From NCBI GenBank assembly GCA_027310575.1, contig DAIDAO010000048.1, positions 1 through 52,900 on the forward strand: a DNA stretch of 52,900 nt, read 5' to 3'. Source of the stretch: a bacterium. GTDB taxonomy: Archaea > Thermoproteota > Nitrososphaeria > Nitrososphaerales > Gagatemarchaeaceae. The notes beneath the pieces were generated by a model. It saw nothing but the letters and a program-made list of their open reading frames with translations. It was not told where the DNA came from and did not search any database. The translations under genes and the position numbers were made by a program. Shown piece by piece: positions 287-49,443 of this stretch (position 1 is its first letter; each line of letters opens with the position of its first letter).

Positions 287-2434
287 TCACTGTACGATGC
301 GGTCGTCCAGAACCATGTCTCCCTTCCGCGCCACCTCGACTTCGAGCTGCCTGGCGCATCTGGGACAGTAGTAGATCCGCAGTTCGAAGCGCCCTCTGCC
401 GTAGAGTTCGCCTCTAACCCGGCCGGCCTTGTTCAGAGAAGCCACCTCCACCTTGGCACGCCTCTTGTAGCCCTCCCTTCCGCTCCCAAACGTGAATCCG
501 CACGGGCACTTGACCTGGCCGTCCTCCAGAAAGAGGGTGTTCGGAAGGTCGTCCCGAGCAGACCTCAGGACAGCGGATGGCTTGAAGGTCGTCTTCACTC
601 TTCTCTTGCGGATATCCAACCTCTTCTTCGCCGTCTCCGTTCTGCCGAAGGTCGACCTGTCTCCGTTCAGGACAACGCCGTAGATTTCATTCGCTGCTTT
701 CGGCGAGACGAGTCCGTCTCTCACGTCCTGAAGCACAAGCGCCGGCTCTCTCTCGATTGGGTCACCGTACCCACCCCCACCCTCCCAGCAGTGGTAGAGA
801 ATAGAGCCGTTCGTGAAGAATGTCCTCTTGTGCTTCTGAGGGAGGACTTTGCCCTTCGCTCGCATTTCTTCGAGCGATGAAGGGAACATCTTTCTCTCGG
901 AAAGGAGCCTGGTGAAGTATCCCTTGGGGAACCGGATCAACCTGACCGTCGAGCCCGGCATCCCGCCGGCGATGCCCATCACATTCGGTACCTCGCAACC
1001 TGTCGAAGCCCAACCAGTTTCTATTCCGCCTTCCGGAGCGCCATACACGGCGTAGCATGTCTCGCCTGTAGCACCGCCTCTGTACATCCCGGGTCCCCCT
1101 GAGTCAGTAACGTGCTTCCTGAAGAAGTACAAGATCGGATACTCCTGTTCCGTCGTCTCGATGTTTGGGATGTTCGGCGTGGTCGTGTTGACGAAGCCTG
1201 CTGTGTTTACGCCGTCCCTGTAGATCCGAGCGCCTCCGCCTCCAGCGAAGTGGCTGCATTCGGCCATGGAGAAACTGTAGCCATGCTGGTTCACCCCCCC
1301 ATGGAGAGGCGCTACCGTCGGTGCCATCCAAAGGCCCATGGTCTCTTCCCTGCGTTTCTCGCTCCAGTTCAGCATCTTGGAGACGCATTCGAATGAAGCG
1401 AGGGCCACCATCAGAATGCCGGAGAGCGTCGCCATCGAGCAGGGTGCAGGATAGGTGCAGTTGCAGACCGTCCCCTCTGGAGCGTTGATTTCGACTTGCT
1501 GGAGAATCCCCTGGTTCCAGACCATGTCAGGGCAGAGCAGGATGTACACAGGTGTAAGGAGTCCGGCGACCAGGCCGCTGTAGCTGCAGTTGATGAACGT
1601 GTTAGCCTGCGGGCTGCTCTTCGAGAAATCGAATGACAGCCTGTCTCCCTTCTTCGTCATCTTGCACACCACCTGGTAGATCTTGGGCGACCGGCCGTCG
1701 TGGTCGATGTACTGTCTTCCCCACCACTCGCCGTCTGGAAGCTCTTCCAGCCTCTTCGCGAACTCGTCTCTTGTCTTGACGAGGCTCTCTTCCATGACTT
1801 GGGTTACCAGGTCTGCACCGTATTTCTCGAAGAGGGCGACCAGTCTCTTTCTCCCAACGTTGTTCGCCGCGAGCTGGGCCTTGATGTCCAAGCCCACGAT
1901 GGGGTCCCTGACCGAGTTCAGTATCCATGAGAAGATGTCGTGCCGAAGCACGTCCTTCTCTACTAGCTTTGTCGGTGGCATCCGAATCCCTTCTTGATGC
2001 ACGTCGGCTGCTTGCATTGAGAAGCCGCCTGGGTCGGTCCCGCCGATGTCTGCCTGATGCCCGGACGCCCCCACCCATGCCCTGAGCTTGCCCTCGTAGA
2101 AGACGGGCGAGAAGGTACCCGAATCTGCCTGATGGGTTGCGCCGATATATGGGTCGTTGCACATGAAAGTGTCCCCTTCTGAAATGCCAGGATTGTCTTT
2201 GCACCTTTCGAGGGCCGCTCGTACCATGAATGGTATGACGTTACCCTGGGTAATCATGTAGGGCCCGACTATGACCAGGTCCCCGTTCGGCAGCATGACA
2301 CTCACATTGGCGTCGTTGGAATCGACGACAAGGCTTGACCCTGATGTCCTCTGGTAGTTGATTTGCATCTCTTCCGCTACCTGCATCAGCTTGTGAAGGA
2401 TGATTTCGTACGTCACGGGATCGATCTTGCTCAT
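287..2434 (-). CDS. hyuB: Hydantoinase B/oxoprolinase-family subunit (HyuB)
   Basis: This 715-residue protein belongs to the HyuB family (N-methylhydantoinase, 5-oxoprolinase and acetone carboxylase alpha-type subunits), which with HyuA performs ATP-dependent opening of cyclic amides or related reactions. It begins KIDPVTYEIILHKLMQVAEE, a typical HyuB N-terminus, followed by NDANVSVMLPNGDLV and GDTFMCNDPYIGATHQAD with the conserved NDP..GG/AxH region. The body is full length. A C-terminal extension near residues 640-690 carries two CxC/CxxC pairs (KCPCGF and YYCPRCARQ), resembling a small zinc-binding tail such as acetone-carboxylase gamma-like modules. Its ATG overlaps the hyuA stop in an ATGA arrangement, so the two are translationally coupled. 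The substrate (hydantoin, oxoproline, ketone) cannot be decided from sequence. Confidence 0.93.
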   Translation of the reverse strand: MSKIDPVTYEIILHKLMQVAEEMQINYQRTSGSSLVVDSNDANVSVMLPNGDLVIVGPYMITQGNVIPFMVRAALERCKDNPGISEGDTFMCNDPYIGATHQADSGTFSPVFYEGKLRAWVGASGHQADIGGTDPGGFSMQAADVHQEGIRMPPTKLVEKDVLRHDIFSWILNSVRDPIVGLDIKAQLAANNVGRKRLVALFEKYGADLVTQVMEESLVKTRDEFAKRLEELPDGEWWGRQYIDHDGRSPKIYQVVCKMTKKGDRLSFDFSKSSPQANTFINCSYSGLVAGLLTPVYILLCPDMVWNQGILQQVEINAPEGTVCNCTYPAPCSMATLSGILMVALASFECVSKMLNWSEKRREETMGLWMAPTVAPLHGGVNQHGYSFSMAECSHFAGGGGARIYRDGVNTAGFVNTTTPNIPNIETTEQEYPILYFFRKHVTDSGGPGMYRGGATGETCYAVYGAPEGGIETGWASTGCEVPNVMGIAGGMPGSTVRLIRFPKGYFTRLLSERKMFPSSLEEMRAKGKVLPQKHKRTFFTNGSILYHCWEGGGGYGDPIEREPALVLQDVRDGLVSPKAANEIYGVVLNGDRSTFGRTETAKKRLDIRKRRVKTTFKPSAVLRSARDDLPNTLFLEDGQVKCPCGFTFGSGREGYKRRAKVEVASLNKAGRVRGELYGRGRFELRIYYCPRCARQLEVEVARKGDMVLDDRIVQ

Positions 2435-4569
2435 CGGCTCACTCCCATGTCAATCACGGTGTTCAGATGCTCGTCGATCCTGGCTCTCTGGTCCGGGTCG
2501 ACCACTATCGTGGTGCCAAGATGCTCTACTATGGCGGGACCCTCGAATTCGTAACCTGCCTTCATGCGCGTACCGTCGTACACCGTCGTCGGGGCGAAGG
2601 AATCAAGCTTCATCCAGTACACGTCCCGCTTCCCCTTGACCGCACTGCGGACCTGTCCTGCCTCGCTGCGTGGATACTTGGGCAGCGCTATCTTCTTCGT
2701 CCTGCCGTAGGCGTCTACCCCGAAGGTGACCAGCTCTACGCCAGCCTCGGCGTAGGCCGAATCTTTGCCGTAGAGGGTCTGGTACTGAGCCTCGAACCTT
2801 CTGACAAGGTCCGCAAGGTCCTCGGTAGTGAGCTTTCCGTTGCCTATGGGAATCGTGAGTTGGTGGACTTGTCTTCTGTATCTCATATCGACCCATCTCG
2901 AAAGCGCCATCTGCTCGTCGAGGACCCCCTCGGAGTGGAGCTTCTCTACTGCCTTTGTCTCCGTCTGCTCGAAGATTCCGCTGACGACGTCGGGATCAGC
3001 CGGGGCAGGTCGAGGATCTGAGATCTTGAGCGAGTGGTGGATGTCACACACTACGGCGCCAAAGGCCGAGAACACGGTGGCTAGTTCGGGGACTATTGCT
3101 TCCCTGATTTCCGCTTCCGATGCGTAGCCGGAGACGTGTGTTGGCCCTGCCCCCCCGTACGCCATAAGGACGAATTCCTTCGGGTCGTATCCGCGCTGTA
3201 TGCTGCATTTCCTTATCAGGTCCGCCATCATGTTGTCCATTACATATCTGATTCCTGCCGCCGCTTTGACCACGTTCCCTCCAAAGAGAACGTCGCCTAC
3301 CTCCGCCTTCACCGCTTTCTCTGCCAGCGCCCTGTTCAGCTTGATTCTTCCGCCCAGAAAATTGTCAGGGTTTACGTATCCCAGGATCACGTCTGCGTCG
3401 GTGACAGTAGGCTTCGTGCCGCCTCTGCCGTAGCAGGCAGGACCAGGGTCTGCACCTGCGCTCTCGGGACCAATCCTGAGGCGACCCAGCCGGACGGAAG
3501 CAATCGAGCCTCCTCCCGTCCCTATTGAAGAGACGTCTACGGCGGGAACGCGCAAGGAATACTGGTTCACTATGAACTCCCTGAGATAAGACCACGCGCC
3601 ATCGTAGATGATTGAGACCTTGAAGGTCGTCCCCCCCACATCGGTGGCGATCACGTTGCGAATGCCCATTAAGTCGGCCAGAAACTTCGCGGCGATGACC
3701 CCTGCCGCAGGGCCGGACTCGATGGTGTTCACCGGTATGGTGTCCTCTGCTGGCGCTACTCCGCCGCTCGCTTGAAGTATGAATAGCGGGGACTTTAACC
3801 CATTCTTCGTCAGAGTCTCGCTCAGCTCGTCGAGGTAGTCCCTGATCAAGGGGCCGACGAAGGCGTTTGCCACCGTGGTCTGGAAACGCTCGTACTCTCC
3901 GATGAGGGGCGACAGCTCGTGCGATGTGCTGACGAACGCGCCGGGGAATGACTTCGTGACGATCTCTTTAATCCTCTTCTCGTTGACCGGGTTCCGGAAT
4001 GACCAGAGCGTTCCGATGGCTACAGCCTCAATCCTCTCTGCCTTGAATCTCCTTACCGCTTCCATCACTTCCTTCTCTTCGAGGTTCGCCAGAACCTTGC
4101 CGTCCCGGTCGATCCTCTCGTGTACCTCCATGATGTTCTCTCTCGATACTAGGGGTGGGGGCTTGTCCGTCTTCCTGAAGTGCCTCCTTTCGAGGAGGCT
4201 CAAGCCTGCGACTCGACCGTAGCCGCGCATGATCATTATCTGGTCGCCGAACCCGGCGGTTGTGATGAAACCAACCTTCGCTCCCTTTGTCATGAAAATC
4301 GCGTTAGAAGAGACCGTGGTGCCGTGAACCAACTTGCTAGCCTTCTCAAGCAGACTCCTGGCCTTCTCCCCAGCCTGGGGCGCTGCAAGCCCAGCCGCGG
4401 CCAGGACGCCCTCCTTCAGCATCGAGGGCGTTGTCGGCGTCTTGGAGACGAAGAGCTTGCCTGTTTCGTCGTCTATCATGAATAGGTCCGTAAATGTGCC
4501 GCCGATGTCGATCCCAACCGAATAGGTCAGTTGCTTAACCTCCAACAATGCGGTTCCGCAATTCGCCAA
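2431..4569 (-). CDS. hyuA: Hydantoinase A/oxoprolinase-family subunit (HyuA)
   Basis: This 712-residue protein is the ATP-binding partner of HyuB. Near the N-terminus it has SVGIDIGGTFTDLFMIDD, the actin/ASKHA phosphate-1 loop with the DIGGTFTD signature of HyuA. It also has the family motif KLVHGTTVSSNAI, the central ESGPAAGVIAAKFLA, and a second phosphate loop IATDVGGTTFKVS, followed by GTGGGSIA and AYGGAGPTHVSGYA. The annotated ATG lies inside the preceding FAH gene (35-base overlap). An in-frame TTG at 4545 would remove eight residues and still precede the P-loop, so the start is uncertain. It sits between the FAH gene and hyuB in one minus-strand operon headed by a ParB-like gene. HyuA/HyuB are known to act as a complex; the cyclic amide, ureide or ketone substrate is undetermined. 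Confidence 0.93.
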   Translation of the reverse strand: MANCGTALLEVKQLTYSVGIDIGGTFTDLFMIDDETGKLFVSKTPTTPSMLKEGVLAAAGLAAPQAGEKARSLLEKASKLVHGTTVSSNAIFMTKGAKVGFITTAGFGDQIMIMRGYGRVAGLSLLERRHFRKTDKPPPLVSRENIMEVHERIDRDGKVLANLEEKEVMEAVRRFKAERIEAVAIGTLWSFRNPVNEKRIKEIVTKSFPGAFVSTSHELSPLIGEYERFQTTVANAFVGPLIRDYLDELSETLTKNGLKSPLFILQASGGVAPAEDTIPVNTIESGPAAGVIAAKFLADLMGIRNVIATDVGGTTFKVSIIYDGAWSYLREFIVNQYSLRVPAVDVSSIGTGGGSIASVRLGRLRIGPESAGADPGPACYGRGGTKPTVTDADVILGYVNPDNFLGGRIKLNRALAEKAVKAEVGDVLFGGNVVKAAAGIRYVMDNMMADLIRKCSIQRGYDPKEFVLMAYGGAGPTHVSGYASEAEIREAIVPELATVFSAFGAVVCDIHHSLKISDPRPAPADPDVVSGIFEQTETKAVEKLHSEGVLDEQMALSRWVDMRYRRQVHQLTIPIGNGKLTTEDLADLVRRFEAQYQTLYGKDSAYAEAGVELVTFGVDAYGRTKKIALPKYPRSEAGQVRSAVKGKRDVYWMKLDSFAPTTVYDGTRMKAGYEFEGPAIVEHLGTTIVVDPDQRARIDEHLNTVIDMGVSR

Positions 4570-5437
4570 TGTGGTCTATGGAAGCCGAGACCTCGTCACG
4601 CGGCCCCAGGAACCGTTGTGGCTGCATGAAATATGCAACGCCAGCCGGGGAACCCGTGAGAATGACGTCTCCAGGATACAGCGTCACTGCCTTCGAGACG
4701 AATGAGACCAGAGTCGGGATGTCGAAGATGAGGTCAGAGATGGAGCCCTTCTGTCGCAGTTCGCCATTGACCGTCAGCCTCAGGCTCAGGCCTGCAGGGT
4801 CACCAATTTCGTCCTTCGTCACGAGATGTGGCCCTGCGGGACAGAAGGTATCAAGGCTCTTTGACAGGGTGTGCTGGTTGTAGAACTGGTTCCTAGGATC
4901 GATCTGGATGTCTCTGGCTGTGAAGTCGTTGATCACGGTATACCCTCCGACGTACTCCATGCTCTGGCCCTTCGCCGCCCCTATGCACTTCTTTCCGATG
5001 ACGACGCCGAGCTCTACCTCGTAGTCGAGTGAGGTGACCCAGCTTGGCTTCACGACGTCGTCATATGGACCGCATGCGCTCGAAGGGAACTTCGCGATGA
5101 TGAATGGTTCGCGCGACGGCTCGGACCGCGTCAGGGAGCTTGCCTCTCTCATGTGAGACCAGGTGTTCGCCCCTATCGCCACTATCTTCGAGGCACCCGC
5201 TGCAACCGATCCCAGGCGCTTTCCAGCAGTCTTCACAAGACAATCTTCAGGAAGGCCAGCAGATTCATCGACTAGGTCTTCGGCAATTTTCGTCCAGCCT
5301 GATTCGGAAAGGAAAGACCTCAGCGTGTCGTGGGCTCGATTGCCTTTGCGCGCCCTGTCGAGGTCGACTAGCGTTCCGCTGTCCTTCAGGACGCCGACCC
5401 TCTCTTCGCCTCGCTTCCCATATGTCGCTATCCTCAC
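4535..5437 (-). CDS. Fumarylacetoacetate hydrolase (FAH)-family protein
   Basis: A 300-residue FAH-fold enzyme. The family hydrolyses C-C bonds or decarboxylates oxo-acids with a divalent metal. The metal-binding acidic triad is visible as LDYEVELGVVIGKK (ExE near residues 135-145) plus the downstream NDFTARDIQ, and the C-terminal FDIPTLVSFVSKAVTLYPGDVILTGSPAGV is characteristic. The start is a GTG whose GTGA overlaps the stop of the upstream ParB-like gene, so translation is coupled to it. HyuA begins before this gene ends. It is distinct from the second FAH gene at 8442-9275, which is shorter at the N-terminus. In this setting it probably processes a dicarboxylate or keto acid released by the HyuAB hydrolase; that is inference. 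Confidence 0.92.
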   Translation of the reverse strand: MRIATYGKRGEERVGVLKDSGTLVDLDRARKGNRAHDTLRSFLSESGWTKIAEDLVDESAGLPEDCLVKTAGKRLGSVAAGASKIVAIGANTWSHMREASSLTRSEPSREPFIIAKFPSSACGPYDDVVKPSWVTSLDYEVELGVVIGKKCIGAAKGQSMEYVGGYTVINDFTARDIQIDPRNQFYNQHTLSKSLDTFCPAGPHLVTKDEIGDPAGLSLRLTVNGELRQKGSISDLIFDIPTLVSFVSKAVTLYPGDVILTGSPAGVAYFMQPQRFLGPRDEVSASIDHIGELRNRIVGG

Positions 5438-6327
5438 CGTCGAATCCCCGCTCCTTCAATCCGAGACCTCTGATCCGTGTCTGCCAACTTCTTCTTCAGT
5501 CGTATCAGCATGTCCACCTGCTCGTGGATTCTGAACCTCAGCTCCATCAGGAAATTCTTCAGAAGGTCGTTGTCTGAGAGACCGTCGATGATGAGGTCCA
5601 TTCTCATAAGGAGAATCCTCGTGTTGGTTATCACTTCGTTGATTATCCGTTCGTCGCGGCGGCTGGGTGGCTTCGTCATCGAGAAGTCGTCGAGGTCGTG
5701 GTCGCTCGGCTTGCATAGCGACTGCGCAAGGGTCTTCACGAACCTAGAAGGGTAGGCGCGGTTTGACACGCGTTCAATCAGCTCGGTCTTTACCTCGTCC
5801 TTTGCCCACGCTATCTCTCGAGCGCTGCTGGCATACAGCGTCCCTGAGCTCACCATGTCCTGTACCTCCTTCGGAAGTTCGAGCAGCTTTATTCGCTGCC
5901 TGACGTAGCTTTCACTCTTGCCTATCCTGACAGCGAGGTTCCGTACTCCGCCCCATCCGTAGTCTCTGACATACCGGTCGAAGGCTCTGGCCTCTTCCAT
6001 TGAGTCCAGGGTCTTCCTCTGAACGTTCTCTGCGATGGCCACCTCGTCGGCTTCCCGGTCACTGAGGTTCCTGATATCGCAGGAGATTCTCTTCCACCTG
6101 AGCAACTTACACGCCTCAAGCCTCCTGTGTCCGGCCACCAGCTCAAAGCCAGACCCGGTCTGCCTGACGATAACTGGCTGCAGGAGCCCCTGGTTCTTGA
6201 TCGAATGAGCAAGCCCCTCGATGTCACCGAGTTCACGTCTGAGCGGATTGGTAGGTGGACGTATGAGCTTGATCTCAAGGTTCTCGACGAACCTGTCGTC
6301 GAAGATCAGAGAACCATGCTTTGACAA
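5434..6327 (-). CDS. ParB/Spo0J-like DNA-binding protein heading a catabolic operon
   Basis: 297 residues with a ParB/sulfiredoxin-fold N-terminal domain. It shows LAHSIKNQGLLQPVIVRQT, then FELVAGHRRLEACKLLRWKR (the GxRRLxA box) and IAENVQRKTLDSMEEARAF (the ENxQR box). In bacterial ParB these two boxes form the CTP-binding pocket. A helix-turn-helix follows (RNLAVRIGKSESYVRQRIKLLELP), then a helical C-terminal region. The start is TTG at 6327, about 27 bases from a TATA-like octamer shared with the divergent TrmB-like gene. The stop overlaps the GTG of the FAH gene (GTGA), making this the first, translationally coupled gene of the FAH-hyuA-hyuB operon. A paralogue of similar length is at 47110-48015. 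A regulatory rather than partition role is inferred from context; no parA is present in the window. Confidence 0.9.
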   Translation of the reverse strand: MSKHGSLIFDDRFVENLEIKLIRPPTNPLRRELGDIEGLAHSIKNQGLLQPVIVRQTGSGFELVAGHRRLEACKLLRWKRISCDIRNLSDREADEVAIAENVQRKTLDSMEEARAFDRYVRDYGWGGVRNLAVRIGKSESYVRQRIKLLELPKEVQDMVSSGTLYASSAREIAWAKDEVKTELIERVSNRAYPSRFVKTLAQSLCKPSDHDLDDFSMTKPPSRRDERIINEVITNTRILLMRMDLIIDGLSDNDLLKNFLMELRFRIHEQVDMLIRLKKKLADTDQRSRIEGAGIRR

Positions 6328-6350
6328 CCGAAGAAATCATTCAGATATCC

Positions 6351-6358
6351 TAATATAT
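6351..6358. promoter_or_regulatory. Shared TATA-like element for divergent ParB-like and TrmB-like genes
   Basis: The octamer TAATATAT is nearly symmetric and is the only TATA-like element between the two genes. Its centre is about 27 bases from the TTG at 6327 on the minus strand and about 33 bases from the TTG at 6388 on the plus strand. Both fit archaeal core promoters with leaderless or near-leaderless transcripts. A bidirectional promoter is inferred from spacing only. Confidence 0.6.
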
Positions 6359-6364
6359 GGATTT

Positions 6365-6382
6365 GTGTCTCACAACTGACAC
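6365..6382 (+). promoter_or_regulatory. Putative operator GTGTCTCACAACTGACAC at the TrmB-like gene
   Basis: This site has GTGTC and GACAC arms separated by eight bases. It lies between the TATA-like octamer and the TTG start of the TrmB-like gene, ending five bases before that start, so a protein bound here would block initiation in that direction. Read towards its own TrmB-like gene, the sequence at 47069-47052 matches at 14 of 18 positions (GTGnCnCACAACnnACAC) and sits in the same place. The binding protein could be the TrmB-like product or the ParB-like product (a parS-like site). Confidence 0.6.
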
Positions 6383-6387
6383 GCAAT

Positions 6388-7266
6388 TTGGAAGCTGAAA
6401 GCCTGCCCGAAGCTGGCCCAGAGTCAAGGTTCAACGAGCTCCTCGTGGGCCTCGGGCTTCCTAACGCTGCGGCGAAGGCATACGTGAGCCTCTTGTCCTT
6501 GGGGAGGTCTGGGGTCCAGGCAATTTCGGATAGAAGTGGACTCGAAAGGGCCCAGACGTACCACGTCCTCAAGGACCTTCAGAGCAGAGGCATAGTGGAG
6601 GTCACTCTGACGAGACCACTCAACTTCGTCCCGCTAGATGCAGAGGCAGCGATCTCGCGGCTGCTACAGCAGCAGTCCGAGCAGCTCTCTGAAATCAGGA
6701 GCTCCTGGAACAAGCTCAGGGGCGAGCTCAGAGTGCAGAAGAAGCAAGTGCTTGAGGAGCGCCCGTCTTACTCGCTGGTAAAGGGGAGGAGGAACATCTA
6801 CCTGAGAATGGTGCTCGACATCTCGCACTCCCACAAAGAAGTCAGGCTTCTGATGTCGCCAAGAGGCGTAATGAGGGAGCGGCGGTTCACGAAGGTGTAT
6901 GGCGGGCTCTCACGGAAGAGCCGTACGGGGACCAAGGTGAGGATAATCACCCAGGTCACCCCCGAGAACGTCCAGGCGGTTGCGGACTGGGCGAGAATAG
7001 CCGAGATCAGGAGCGCGACCCCTCAGACCTCCAACTCGTCGACCTACGATGATTCGAGAACGTCGATCTGTCTTTCAGTCGTCGAGGATTTGAGCCTCGA
7101 CACCGAATCGCATGTAAGCCTCTGGACCAACGCTCCCACCTTCATAACTGCGATGAACGAATATTTCTGGACCCTCTGGAAGAGTTCGACACCGGTGGAG
7201 GAATTGGATGAGTTCAGACAGGCGGCACAATTGCGCACGCGCGTGCGCAATCCCCTCCCTGCCTAG
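6388..7266 (+). CDS. TrmB-family transcriptional regulator
   Basis: 292 residues. The N-terminal winged helix-turn-helix shows LLVGLGLPNAAAKAYVSLLS, then SGVQAISDRSGLERAQTYHV as the recognition helix region. It continues into GIVEVTLTRPLNFVPLDAEA and a coiled segment (SRLLQQQSEQLSEIRSSWNK) typical of TrmB proteins. The C-terminal half (SYSLVKGRRNIYLRM to about residue 260) is a phospholipase-D-like/TrmB sensor domain, which in characterised archaeal TrmBs binds sugars or other small ligands. The start is TTG at 6388, just downstream of the putative operator. It is transcribed away from the ParB-like gene and ends in a 4-base tail-to-tail overlap with the MFS gene. A paralogue with the same layout is at 46233-47048. 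The ligand is unknown. Confidence 0.9.
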   Translation: MEAESLPEAGPESRFNELLVGLGLPNAAAKAYVSLLSLGRSGVQAISDRSGLERAQTYHVLKDLQSRGIVEVTLTRPLNFVPLDAEAAISRLLQQQSEQLSEIRSSWNKLRGELRVQKKQVLEERPSYSLVKGRRNIYLRMVLDISHSHKEVRLLMSPRGVMRERRFTKVYGGLSRKSRTGTKVRIITQVTPENVQAVADWARIAEIRSATPQTSNSSTYDDSRTSICLSVVEDLSLDTESHVSLWTNAPTFITAMNEYFWTLWKSSTPVEELDEFRQAAQLRTRVRNPLPA

Positions 7267-25910: not shown

Positions 25911-27161
25911 TTAAACGTCGCCGAGAGCAGAGGTAGTGTCATGAACCGAGATGCCGGAGAGCGTGAAACTGTGGTCTTCATCGACCTCTAGGTTGTACGC
26001 AAGACCCCTGAATTCCTCCTCGGTAACCTTCTTGACCGGGACCCAGAATTTCTTGAACCGTTTCGTGTACCATTGAGCGGTCCTTCCGGACTTGCTCATG
26101 CCCGTGGGTTCGTCGACAACTTCGTTGAACCTGAACCTTTGTTTCCCGGAGATTGACAATTGATATGATATCCCACTTTTGACTACTCGGTCCCCAATCT
26201 TACTTTCCCGGATTTCGTGCTTCAGGAAACTTGGCAGGTAACCGAGACGTTCGAAGACCAGTGTCATTCCGCTTGCTAGATCGATGTACGAGGAGGAAGC
26301 TGAAAAGCTGTTGAGACTGGAAGTCCCGTCGCCACGCCACCAGCCTTTCACTAGCTCCTTGAGGAACCGTTCAGGTAGCCGGAGAACCCACCTCGGAAGA
26401 TGCTTCTCCGGTCCTACGCGTCCGAAGTAACGCGAGAAGAATGTGTAGGCATGAACTGATGTGACGTGGATTACCGTCGTCGACTCGGTGTGCTGTATCC
26501 ATGGTTTCACCAGAAAAATCTCTCTAAGCAGTGCGACGCAGTCGGCTACGTAGAGTTCTTCCCCATTTCTGTTGAAAGTGAAAGCGACACGCCCCTCGTT
26601 CGGAAGGGGATGGTAGGCAAATCCCTCTGAGAGATAGTATCCCACAAGCCTCATTAGTGGTGGAGTCACGCGCAGAATCCTAGTTTTCGAGCGATTATGA
26701 GGGTGGTACGCACCCCTGTGGGCCAGCATGTGGTGCTCGCTCATCCCAATCTTCAGTTGTCTGTCATTCCACTGACGACTGCTTCGGAGTGACCTCGCTG
26801 GTCTGGGCACACAGATCATGTCCCCTTTGCGCAATTCGCTTGCGGGTCTCCAGCGTTCGGCGTAACGGGGATATCCTGTGGAGTCGAGCCTCCAGCTCAT
26901 AGAGAGCACAGGGTATTCTGGCCCGAGGAGAATGTCTGGTTTGTAGGTTGGTGTGATTCGAAAGACCTTGTCTACACATGGTGTCGTCCCTAGTCGAGTA
27001 ATCGGTCTGAACCGACCTCTATGGGTGTAGACTAGGTTCCCGATTTTCAGATCTTGAGCGAATACGCTTCTGAGGATTTCAGAAAAGCGAGTCCGTTCGC
27101 TGGTGATGATTCTTCCTTGCGGAATAGAAACGCGTGTGAAATCAGATTCGCCGTCTCTCAC
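25911..27161 (-). CDS. Intein-like Hint/LAGLIDADG homing-endonuclease protein
   Basis: 416 residues that read like an intein standing alone. The N-terminal part has a Hint-like block (AQDLKIGNLVYTHRGRFRPI, about 35-54). A LAGLIDADG (DOD) endonuclease has its two motifs at LMRLVGYYLSEG (169-180) and LVKGWWRGDGT (270-280). The C-terminus is a nearly perfect intein end, AYNLEVDEDHSFTLSGISVH at 388-407, followed by D and TTSALGDV. The catalytic N-terminal Cys/Ser of block A and the TxxH of block B (here LLGPEYPVL) are missing, and the terminal Asn is Asp, so splicing is doubtful. It is clearly AT-richer than its neighbours. It lies directly downstream of the RecB-type nuclease gene and probably arrived with it. 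It could be an intein remnant whose host gene was lost, or a free homing nuclease. Confidence 0.8.
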   Translation of the reverse strand: MRDGESDFTRVSIPQGRIITSERTRFSEILRSVFAQDLKIGNLVYTHRGRFRPITRLGTTPCVDKVFRITPTYKPDILLGPEYPVLSMSWRLDSTGYPRYAERWRPASELRKGDMICVPRPARSLRSSRQWNDRQLKIGMSEHHMLAHRGAYHPHNRSKTRILRVTPPLMRLVGYYLSEGFAYHPLPNEGRVAFTFNRNGEELYVADCVALLREIFLVKPWIQHTESTTVIHVTSVHAYTFFSRYFGRVGPEKHLPRWVLRLPERFLKELVKGWWRGDGTSSLNSFSASSSYIDLASGMTLVFERLGYLPSFLKHEIRESKIGDRVVKSGISYQLSISGKQRFRFNEVVDEPTGMSKSGRTAQWYTKRFKKFWVPVKKVTEEEFRGLAYNLEVDEDHSFTLSGISVHDTTSALGDV

Positions 27162-46232: not shown

Positions 46233-47048
46233 CTACGGCCGCAGCCCCATCGATTTCATCGTAGGCCCTGCCGGGGCGGCTAGGAACCAGGCCGAATCGA
46301 AGAACGCCGCCAGCATCTTCACGAACGGCGCTCCATTTGACCAGAGCGCGACGTGCTCCGCGACGTCTTCGTCCAGGGCGTCGTTTATCGCGAGCGCGAC
46401 CGAGCCGATCTTCGTGTCGTAGATGGACGCGTTGGTCGACTGGTTCCTCACGTGGCGAACCTCGGCCATTTCGCCGATGGTCTTCACGTATTCCGCGTTC
46501 GACTTCGTTATCTCGGTTATCACCCTGAACTCCACCCCCTCCTTCGCCTTCTGGTCCATGAGGTGGAGGAAGTTCCTGAACCTGCTCAGCCGGATGATGC
46601 CGTTGGAAGACATCAACAGGGACACTTCGTCCTTGCACGCAGATATCGACTCTATGACGCGGAGGTACGTCCTGACCCTCCCTCTGACCACCGAGAAGGT
46701 CTCGGTGCTCGGCGGCGTCCCGAGGGCCGCAGGAGTGAGGCTGTCCAGGATTGACCGCTTCACTTCGCCCAGCTTCTTGAACCTGACAGTCTGGAGCGCG
46801 AACAGGTGGCCGACAGCTTCCCTGGGCTCGATCGGTTTGAACCGGGTGGGAGAGTCGAGTGTGGCATCGACCAGCCCCAGCCGCTCGAGCCTCTCCAGGA
46901 GATGGTGGGTGTTGCTCCGCTCCTTCACGGCAGCGGCTGCTATCTCGGTCGTGGTTGCGGTCCCCAGTCGTGCGGCTGCAAGGTAGACTTTGGCCTCAGA
47001 ATTGGTGAGGCCCAGCTCCACGAGGGCTTCGAGAAGGTCGTTGGGCAA
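46233..47048 (-). CDS. TrmB-family transcriptional regulator (second copy)
   Basis: 271 residues from the TTG at 47048. A GTG at 47069 would place the putative operator inside the coding sequence. It has the same plan as the protein at 6388-7266: winged helix LLEALVELGLTNSEAKVYLA, recognition region KERSNTHHLLERLERLGLVD, TRFKPIEPREAVGHLFALQT, then a sensor domain with SVVRGRVRTYLRVIESISAC and VSLLMSSNGIIRLSRFRNFL matching the first copy closely in layout. The transcription direction is away from a ParB-like gene, as in the first pair. Its stop is ten bases from the right tRNA-derived repeat. Ligand and targets unknown; autoregulation through the 18-base site is inferred. Confidence 0.9.
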   Translation of the reverse strand: MPNDLLEALVELGLTNSEAKVYLAAARLGTATTTEIAAAAVKERSNTHHLLERLERLGLVDATLDSPTRFKPIEPREAVGHLFALQTVRFKKLGEVKRSILDSLTPAALGTPPSTETFSVVRGRVRTYLRVIESISACKDEVSLLMSSNGIIRLSRFRNFLHLMDQKAKEGVEFRVITEITKSNAEYVKTIGEMAEVRHVRNQSTNASIYDTKIGSVALAINDALDEDVAEHVALWSNGAPFVKMLAAFFDSAWFLAAPAGPTMKSMGLRP

Positions 47049-47051
47049 GCT

Positions 47052-47069
47052 GTGTGTGTTGTGTGTCAC
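47052..47069 (-). promoter_or_regulatory. Putative operator matching the site at 6365-6382
   Basis: Read towards the TrmB-like gene the site is GTGACACACAACACACAC. It ends three bases before the TTG at 47048. It matches GTGTCTCACAACTGACAC at 14 of 18 positions, including the central CACAAC and both ends. The neighbouring GTGTGTCACACAC (47061-47073) is also a perfect palindrome around one base. Its place next to the TATA element suggests control of one or both divergent genes. Confidence 0.6.
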
Positions 47070-47078
47070 ACACTTAGT

Positions 47079-47088
47079 CTTTTATACA
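47079..47088. promoter_or_regulatory. Shared TATA-like element for divergent TrmB-like and ParB-like genes
   Basis: TCTTTTATACAT (its reverse complement contains TATAAAAG) lies about 26 bases before the ATG at 47110 and about 36 before the TTG at 47048. As in the first module, it is the only TATA-like box between the two genes. Confidence 0.6.
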
Positions 47089-48096: not shown

Positions 48097-49443
48097 ATGG
48101 ACGACTGGTTAGAGCATCTCCAGAAGGCCGACTCGGCCGTGGCAGAGCTCGTCCGGAAGGAGCTTGACAGGCAGGAATACGGCCTGGAGATGATCCCGTC
48201 AGAGAACTATGCGAGCCTGGCAGTGCTCGAGGCGATGGGGACGATACTGACGAACAAGTACTCTGAAGGCTATCCCGGCAGGCGATACTACGCGGGGAAC
48301 AAGTTCATCGATCAGGTGGAGAATCTAGCCATAGAGAGGGCAAAGAAGGCGTTCGGGGTGCCGTATGCCAACGTCCAACCATACTCGGGGACGCCCGCCA
48401 ACCAGGCAGTCTACATGGCGGTCTGCAATCTCGGGGACGTGGTGATGGGCCAGGGCCTGCTGGACGGAGGTCATCTGACCCACGGGTGGGGGACCAGCTT
48501 CTCCGGCATCAATTACAAGAGCGTCCAGTATCATGTGAAGGCAGACGGATACATCGACCTAGAGGAGGCCAGGAAGCTCGCCAAGGAGAATCGGCCGAGG
48601 CTAATGTGGGTCGGAGCGAGCGCATACTCCAGGGAGTACCCGTTCGAGGAATTCTCGAAGATAGCGGAAGAGGTCGGGGCCTGCCTGGCAGCGGACGTGG
48701 CGCACGTGGCCGGCCTGATAGTCGGAGGCGTCCACAAGGACCCTGCGCCCTACGTGCATATCATCACGACGACCACGCACAAGACCCTGAGAGGACCCCG
48801 TGGCGCCATGGTCATGGTCACGAAGAGGGGGCTCGAGCACGATCCGGACCTCGGGGCCAAGATAGACAAGGCTGTCTTCCCGGGACTGCAGGGAGGGCCG
48901 CACGACCAGACGACGGCTGCCATAGCCGTCGCTCTCGGCGAAGCGCTGAAGCCGGAGTTCAAGGGATATGCGCGTCAGGTGGTGCAGAACGCGAAGGCGC
49001 TGGCGCAACGTCTGGTCGGGAACGGCGTCAAGATCGTGTCCAACGGGACAGACAACCATCTGATGCTCCTGGACCTGACGCCATTTGGCAAGGGAAAGGG
49101 AGTGTTCGTCCAGGACGCGCTGGAAGGCGCCGCGATTACGGTGAACAAGAACACGATCCCTGCCGACCCGGCGCCGCCGTTCTACCCGTCAGGGGTACGG
49201 CTGGGGACACCCGCGCTTACGACCAGAGGGATGAAGGAGCCCGAGATGGGGCTGATTGCGGACTGGATTGCAGACATCGTCAAAGACTCCAAAGACATCA
49301 TGCTCCCTGAGGACAAGCTGGAGCGGAGGAGTGCGGTGAAGGCCTTCAGGTCGAGCGTCGGAAAGAACCCGAAGGTGGCGGAAGTGAAGGGGCAGGTCAC
49401 AGACCTCTGTAAGCGGTTCCCTCTGTACCCTGAACTGCGATAG
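48097..49443 (+). CDS. glyA: Serine hydroxymethyltransferase
   Basis: 448 residues. The SHMT landmarks are YGLEMIPSENYASLAVLEAM, YSEGYPGRRYYAGNKFIDQV, YANVQPYSGTPANQAVYMAV, LAADVAHVAGLIVGGVHKDP and ITTTTHKTLRGPRGAMVMVT with the PLP lysine in THKTLRGPRG. It interconverts serine and glycine with tetrahydrofolate or an archaeal pterin. TCTTAAATAG lies about 27-32 bases upstream of the ATG. It is a core one-carbon gene; its closeness to the ParB-like gene may be accidental. Confidence 0.96.
   Translation: MDDWLEHLQKADSAVAELVRKELDRQEYGLEMIPSENYASLAVLEAMGTILTNKYSEGYPGRRYYAGNKFIDQVENLAIERAKKAFGVPYANVQPYSGTPANQAVYMAVCNLGDVVMGQGLLDGGHLTHGWGTSFSGINYKSVQYHVKADGYIDLEEARKLAKENRPRLMWVGASAYSREYPFEEFSKIAEEVGACLAADVAHVAGLIVGGVHKDPAPYVHIITTTTHKTLRGPRGAMVMVTKRGLEHDPDLGAKIDKAVFPGLQGGPHDQTTAAIAVALGEALKPEFKGYARQVVQNAKALAQRLVGNGVKIVSNGTDNHLMLLDLTPFGKGKGVFVQDALEGAAITVNKNTIPADPAPPFYPSGVRLGTPALTTRGMKEPEMGLIADWIADIVKDSKDIMLPEDKLERRSAVKAFRSSVGKNPKVAEVKGQVTDLCKRFPLYPELR

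Follow-up and report, generated by a model that had tools for sequence, protein, structure and literature searches.

Why should a ParB-like protein stand back to back with a TrmB-like regulator, with no ParA gene nearby, and do so twice in the same stretch of DNA? The question is raised by a window of 52,900 nucleotides (the whole stretch analysed) from a 1.58-Mb genome assembly of Nitrososphaerota (G000:C55), in which two divergent ParB/TrmB pairs, here called A and B, are separated by spacers of 40–60 bp (Table 1). Both pairs had been described in a first-pass annotation, and gene calls and Pfam domains confirmed them. ParB A and ParB B match ParB_N (7.8e-18 and 6.9e-20) and HTH_ParB (2.7e-14 and 2.3e-18), the features that mark membership of the family, and the TrmB winged helix (PF01978) was found in TrmB A and TrmB B (7.5e-13 and 4.8e-12). 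Between A and B, identity is 37–39% for ParB and 30–32% for TrmB. A recent local duplication of one pair was rejected on these values of 30–39% and on the free tree, which sets ParB A apart from ParB B; judged by their sequences, the pairs are old paralogues.

Only three TrmB proteins in the whole genome exceed the Pfam cut-off. ParB_N proteins number four, and pairs A and B account for two of each kind. A third ParB paralogue (G000:C31:60516-61430, L003/L192) is without a TrmB; it lies beside a BMP-type ABC binding protein and also adjoins a gene that we read by eye as a CoxG-like SRPBCC protein. The fourth, on C19, is more distant. No ParA gene was found near the pairs, as the annotation had stated, and the only AAA_31 match of the genome is partial and on another contig. 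In addition, an ORF at 25911-27161 of the window resembles, by eye, a LAGLIDADG/intein-type endonuclease.

Table 1. Positions in the window of the two gene pairs, their neighbours and the sequence elements of the two spacers.
Feature	Position	Strand	Remark
Hydantoinase/oxoprolinase B	287-2434	-	same direction as ParB A
Hydantoinase/oxoprolinase A	2431-4569	-	same direction as ParB A
Fumarylacetoacetate-hydrolase (FAA) family gene	4535-5437	-	directly behind ParB A, GTGA overlap
ParB-like A, 297 aa (ParB_N, HTH_ParB, C-terminal helices)	5434-6327	-	last codons overlap FAA-hydrolase start
TATA-like element, spacer A, TAATATAT	6351-6358	.	sequence reading
Operator-like dyad A, GTGTC-N8-GACAC	6365-6382	.	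between TATA and TrmB start
TrmB/TrmBL2-like regulator A, 292 aa	6388-7266	+	60-bp spacer to ParB A
TrmB/TrmBL2-like regulator B, 278 aa	46233-47069	-	coordinates from first ORF start
Operator-like dyad B, GTGTGTG-N8-CACACAC	47052-47073	.	between TATA and likely TrmB start (TTG 47048)
TATA-like element, spacer B, TTTTATAC	47080-47087	.	sequence reading
ParB-like B, 301 aa	47110-48015	+	
Serine hydroxymethyltransferase (SHMT)	48097-49443	+	82 bp behind ParB B

When the ParB family was compared with solved structures, its sequences matched Noc, Spo0J/ParB and KorB. A fold search with an AlphaFold (AF2) model of ParB B (mean pLDDT 82) returned the same Noc/ParB/KorB folds, with Noc (7nfu) as the best PDB match; the closest structures are 7nfu, 6sdk and 6t1f (Noc and Spo0J-ParB). 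The two long C-terminal helices of ParB B gave no match to the Pfam ParB C-terminal dimerisation domain (PF23552). These best family-model and fold matches favour the usual annotation, by which such proteins serve in chromosome segregation, nucleoid occlusion or SMC loading in the manner of Spo0J or Noc, and the ParB/Spo0J proteins of sponge-associated Thaumarchaeota have been read in this way (PMC9289680).

The nucleotide pocket was mapped on Caulobacter ParB over 84 archaeal rows, using published mutants (PMC8367383). Caulobacter residues R60, S74, G79, R103, R104, N136, R139 and E135 correspond to R31, S44, G49, R70, R71, N103, R106 and E102 of ParB B, and these CTP-contact residues are kept in 79–84 of the 84 rows; all of them except E135 are reported as required for CTP binding in Caulobacter (PMC8367383). 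The GxRR(LxA) and ENVQR boxes named in the first-pass annotation were found as GxRR and ENVQR in both A and B, and the degeneration across homologues that it had regarded as telling against the module idea was not seen at the binding residues tested. The catalytic positions behave differently. The Glu of GERR (Caulobacter E102) is Glu in none of the 84 archaeal ParBs, being mostly Asn or His, and at the position of Gln58, the second residue proposed to be catalytic, 11 of them have Gln. The E102A mutant of Caulobacter ParB still binds CTP but fails to hydrolyse it, and it remains closed on DNA (PMC8367383). Since the binding residues are kept and both proposed hydrolysis residues are lost or rare, the better prediction is that the ParB-like proteins bind CTP and close the clamp without normal turnover. 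Of the CTP-switch clamp originally suggested, the binding pocket has thus held up but the residues for hydrolysis have not. Because nucleotide specificity is not predictable from sequence (PMC12704722), CTP is taken here as the default and not as a result.

The ParA-binding motif (L/F/I)G(K/R)G(L/F/I) was found in 0/84 archaeal rows and in two of the three bacterial rows. Of the features of a ParABS partition protein, the nucleotide-binding fold with GxRR and ENxxR and the HTH_ParB domain are therefore present, whereas a ParA gene, the ParA motif and the catalytic pair of Gln and Glu are not; the CTP-contact residues expected of a VirB- or KorB-like regulator are there. The genomes carry up to five ParB paralogues each, several of them at catabolic genes, and according to a recent survey chromosome segregation is an unlikely function of archaeal HTH-ParBs (PMC12704722). 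With no ParA motif, no ParA nearby and the catalytic residues lost, we consider a segregation role for these proteins improbable, despite the fold.

The partner protein was examined as well. TrmB matched the profile of TrmBL2 (5bpd/5box) over its full length, residues 13-273 against 4-263 (E 3.1e-18), and its C-terminal domain showed a weak alignment to PLD-like proteins, cardiolipin hydrolase among them. The sugar-binding C-domain (Regulator_TrmB) gave no Pfam match in TrmB A or TrmB B, and a sugar-sensor TrmB was rejected on these observations. The AF2 model of TrmB was usable for the winged helix only (mean pLDDT 52), the C-domain being poorly modelled. What had been called a ligand-sensing TrmB should, on these alignments, be read as a TrmBL2-like protein with putative ligand binding. 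The PLD-like C-terminal domain also occurs in histidine kinases of 557 and 719 aa in the same genome (G000:C1:18351-18656, L277; G000:C31:44974-45321, L278), and therefore has the appearance of a general-purpose sensor domain in this lineage. At one locus (L236), a ParB without a TrmB (5007-5870) is followed by a histidine kinase (3414-4880) with a weak TrmB-profile score (15 bits), possibly obtained through a C-terminal domain common to regulators and kinases; another type of sensor may replace TrmB there.

The pairing was then followed in 84 ParB homologues of the order with their gene neighbourhoods; the divergent pair of G077, which has an over-long start, was added by hand. The genomes are drafts read with a simple ORF picker, and the phylogenies were quick ones with SH-aLRT support, in which branches are long. 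A TrmB was found within two genes of ParB in 17 of the 84 homologues, against about 0.7 (~0.66) expected from a TrmB density of 3.3 per genome and an assumed average of ~1700 genes. The binomial probability is 3e-19 over rows, or 4e-6 when the count is by clade (~30, at least 5 of them paired); both values are rough, and the rows are not independent. The 17 pairs comprise four divergent ones, nine in the order TrmB>ParB and four in the order ParB>TrmB, and they fall in several clades (six changes on the tree) and in three families (f1, f9 and f12). On the TrmB tree the four divergent pairs group together as a single clade (support 89); for their ParBs a single clade is not rejected (AU p 0.52). 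The pairing is neither chance nor the product of a recent duplication. The other 67 ParBs, however, have no TrmB within two genes, and many related TrmBs also stand alone. The annotation had proposed a paired module and had named separation of the two genes in most relatives as the observation that would speak against it; this separation is what we found, and the gene order varies. A universal or obligate two-gene TrmB-ParB module was therefore rejected, and because most ParBs lack a TrmB neighbour, only an optional, recurrent association survives.

We also looked at the genes next to the pairs. The FAA-hydrolase gene is likely to be on the ParB A transcript, and catabolic or uptake genes lie directly behind pair A and five tandem pairs. 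Behind the tandem pairs elsewhere these are MmgE/PrpD, a DHDPS-like gene with an FAD oxidase, a peptide ABC transporter, an aldehyde dehydrogenase and an FAA hydrolase; behind one ParB>TrmB pair it is a molybdopterin dehydrogenase. ABC permeases, arginase or Bmp are the neighbours of some orphan ParBs. A co-directional gene behind ParB was seen in 10 of 14 paired cases versus 24 of 65 orphans. SHMT is a possible target of pair B, but this context is not kept in G022; behind the f12 pairs the next gene is convergent, not co-directional. A target operon can therefore be named neither for pair B nor for the f12 pairs.

Mobile elements often carry ParB genes (PMC12704722), and the pairs could in principle be partition genes of a plasmid or mobile element left behind in the chromosome. 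We regard this origin as highly improbable: the scan of neighbouring genes identified neither a transposase nor an integrase, and in a sample of 151 genomes of the phylum the family was seen in the order Nitrososphaerales only, in lineage-specific clades. In the f12 and f8 groups, different species keep the gene at orthologous positions, and mobile genes are absent from the surroundings.

Each of the spacers A and B contains one A/T-rich TATA-like element, at a distance of ~25-28 bp to the start of ParB and ~33-35 bp to that of TrmB, and the single element may serve both divergent genes. A bacterial-type promoter scan of spacer B gave no match, as expected for an archaeon. For TrmB B an alternative start, TTG at 47048, lies just behind dyad B and fits the relatives better. 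A GTGT..ACAC dyad between the TATA element and the TrmB start was present in all four divergent pairs, as TGTGTGTGT-N10-ACACACACA in G077 and as GTGTnTGTTnnnnAACAnACAC in G022. Dyads A and B are identical at 15 of 19 positions, and 7 of 2000 shuffles were equally good, which makes the match only moderately significant, partly because both spacers are GT/AC-rich; for spacers A and G022, 3 of 2000 shuffles were as good. In the whole genome, the pattern derived from A and B matched exactly at these two sites only, an exactness that follows by construction, and no second target was found at 0-1 mismatch; with up to two mismatches, 0.18 chance matches are expected per window. The weight of the dyad comes from its common position, from its counterparts in G022 and G077, and from the lack of other sites.

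The spacer between TrmB and ParB in tandem pairs has another motif, TGTAGGTANCA..TACC, which precedes ParB. At the same stringency and with leave-one-out, it was found in 6 of 9 TrmB>ParB spacers versus 3 of 67 orphans; an operator common to orphan and paired ParBs was rejected for this reason. As the motif tracks TrmB and precedes parB, it suggests that TrmB regulates parB in tandem pairs. Two sister ParBs, one with a TrmB (L207) and one without (L250), have a third palindrome in common, GGGTTGCA..TGCAACCC, which could be ParB's own site. In three two-gene units (L193, L194 and L196) a conserved palindrome, TGTTGNCGNCAACA, lies upstream of TrmB and is distinct from the motif before ParB, so that each unit has two different putative operators. 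From these positions, the dyad and the tandem motif may be assigned to TrmB and the palindrome of the sister ParBs to ParB.

These results bear on the possibility that the two proteins are independent local regulators, TrmB running the operon and ParB being a separate regulator or else a DNA-binding relic under its own control, with no mutual action. The many members that stand alone on both sides fit this explanation, as do a tandem operator that tracks TrmB only and the palindrome found with and without TrmB. It accounts less well for repeated pairing across separate clades and three gene orders, or for a tandem-pair operator that stands directly before parB, and we judge it rather unlikely.

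We consider it probable that the pairs serve local transcription control, in which a TrmBL2-like repressor works with a weakly hydrolysing CTP clamp of the VirB/KorB kind, and that they are not a partition system. The winged-helix protein would bind the dyad operator at its own start in divergent pairs, or the operator before parB in tandem pairs, and would thereby control, perhaps in answer to an inducer, how far its own gene, parB and the genes transcribed downstream of parB are expressed. The ParB-like protein would load at a nearby site, bind CTP or another NTP, close as a clamp, slide over the promoter region and alter transcription as VirB and KorB do, as a repressor or as an anti-repressor, with little or no CTP hydrolysis. 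Counting against local control are the unpaired majority of ParB homologues, the loss of the SHMT context in G022, the f12 pairs without a co-directional gene and the A-B dyad match equalled in 7 of 2000 shuffles.

VirB of Shigella, a CTP-dependent, ParB-derived activator that acts as an anti-silencer, keeps the binding residues and one of the two hydrolysis residues and is a weak CTPase (PMC10770331). The archaeal proteins resemble it in having a ParB fold without ParA, a kept GxRR and a presumed role in transcription; they differ in that VirB belongs to a bacterial virulence plasmid, is distant in sequence and has no TrmB partner, and in that here the Glu is always and the Gln mostly missing. 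KorB of plasmid RK2 represses together with a second repressor (KorA or TrbA). It is a ParB-family CTP clamp used in gene repression and is matched here in sequence and fold, but it comes from a bacterial plasmid, its partner is not a TrmB, and it uses CTP binding and hydrolysis (PMC12704722). Noc and Spo0J-ParB are closest in sequence and fold, whereas the archaeal ParBs lack the GERR Glu, the ParA motif and a PF23552 match in their C-terminal helices, and are paired with TrmB at metabolic genes. On the side of the partner, TrmBL2 members of Thermococcales are chromatin-like global repressors. The likeness to them lies in the full-length profile match, a TrmB winged helix with a PLD-like C-domain; TrmBL2 of Thermococcus is, however, an abundant, filament-forming, non-specific chromatin protein (PMC7325993), while here local genes with operator-like dyads are concerned. 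A bolder version would make the pair an archaeal counterpart of H-NS and VirB, in which a TrmBL2-like silencing filament spreading from the dyad is stripped by a sliding, non-hydrolysing, CTP-loaded ParB clamp, giving catabolic operons a long-lived ON state; we give this little credence.

We found no description of the TrmB-ParB association, and no known role for archaeal ParBs with a DNA-binding domain, in the literature searched (one open-access library, which does not prove novelty). The 2025 survey describes archaeal HTH-ParBs without ParA, gives no function and does not mention TrmB (PMC12704722). With a recurrent partner, candidate targets, candidate operators and the sharp prediction that CTP is bound and not turned over, the question becomes directly testable. 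Taken from sequence comparison, the pattern suggests that Nitrososphaerota recruited a protein of chromosome segregation as a switch for gene control. If this is true, the ParB clamp became a transcription switch in archaea too, and loss of hydrolysis would accompany the change, as in VirB.
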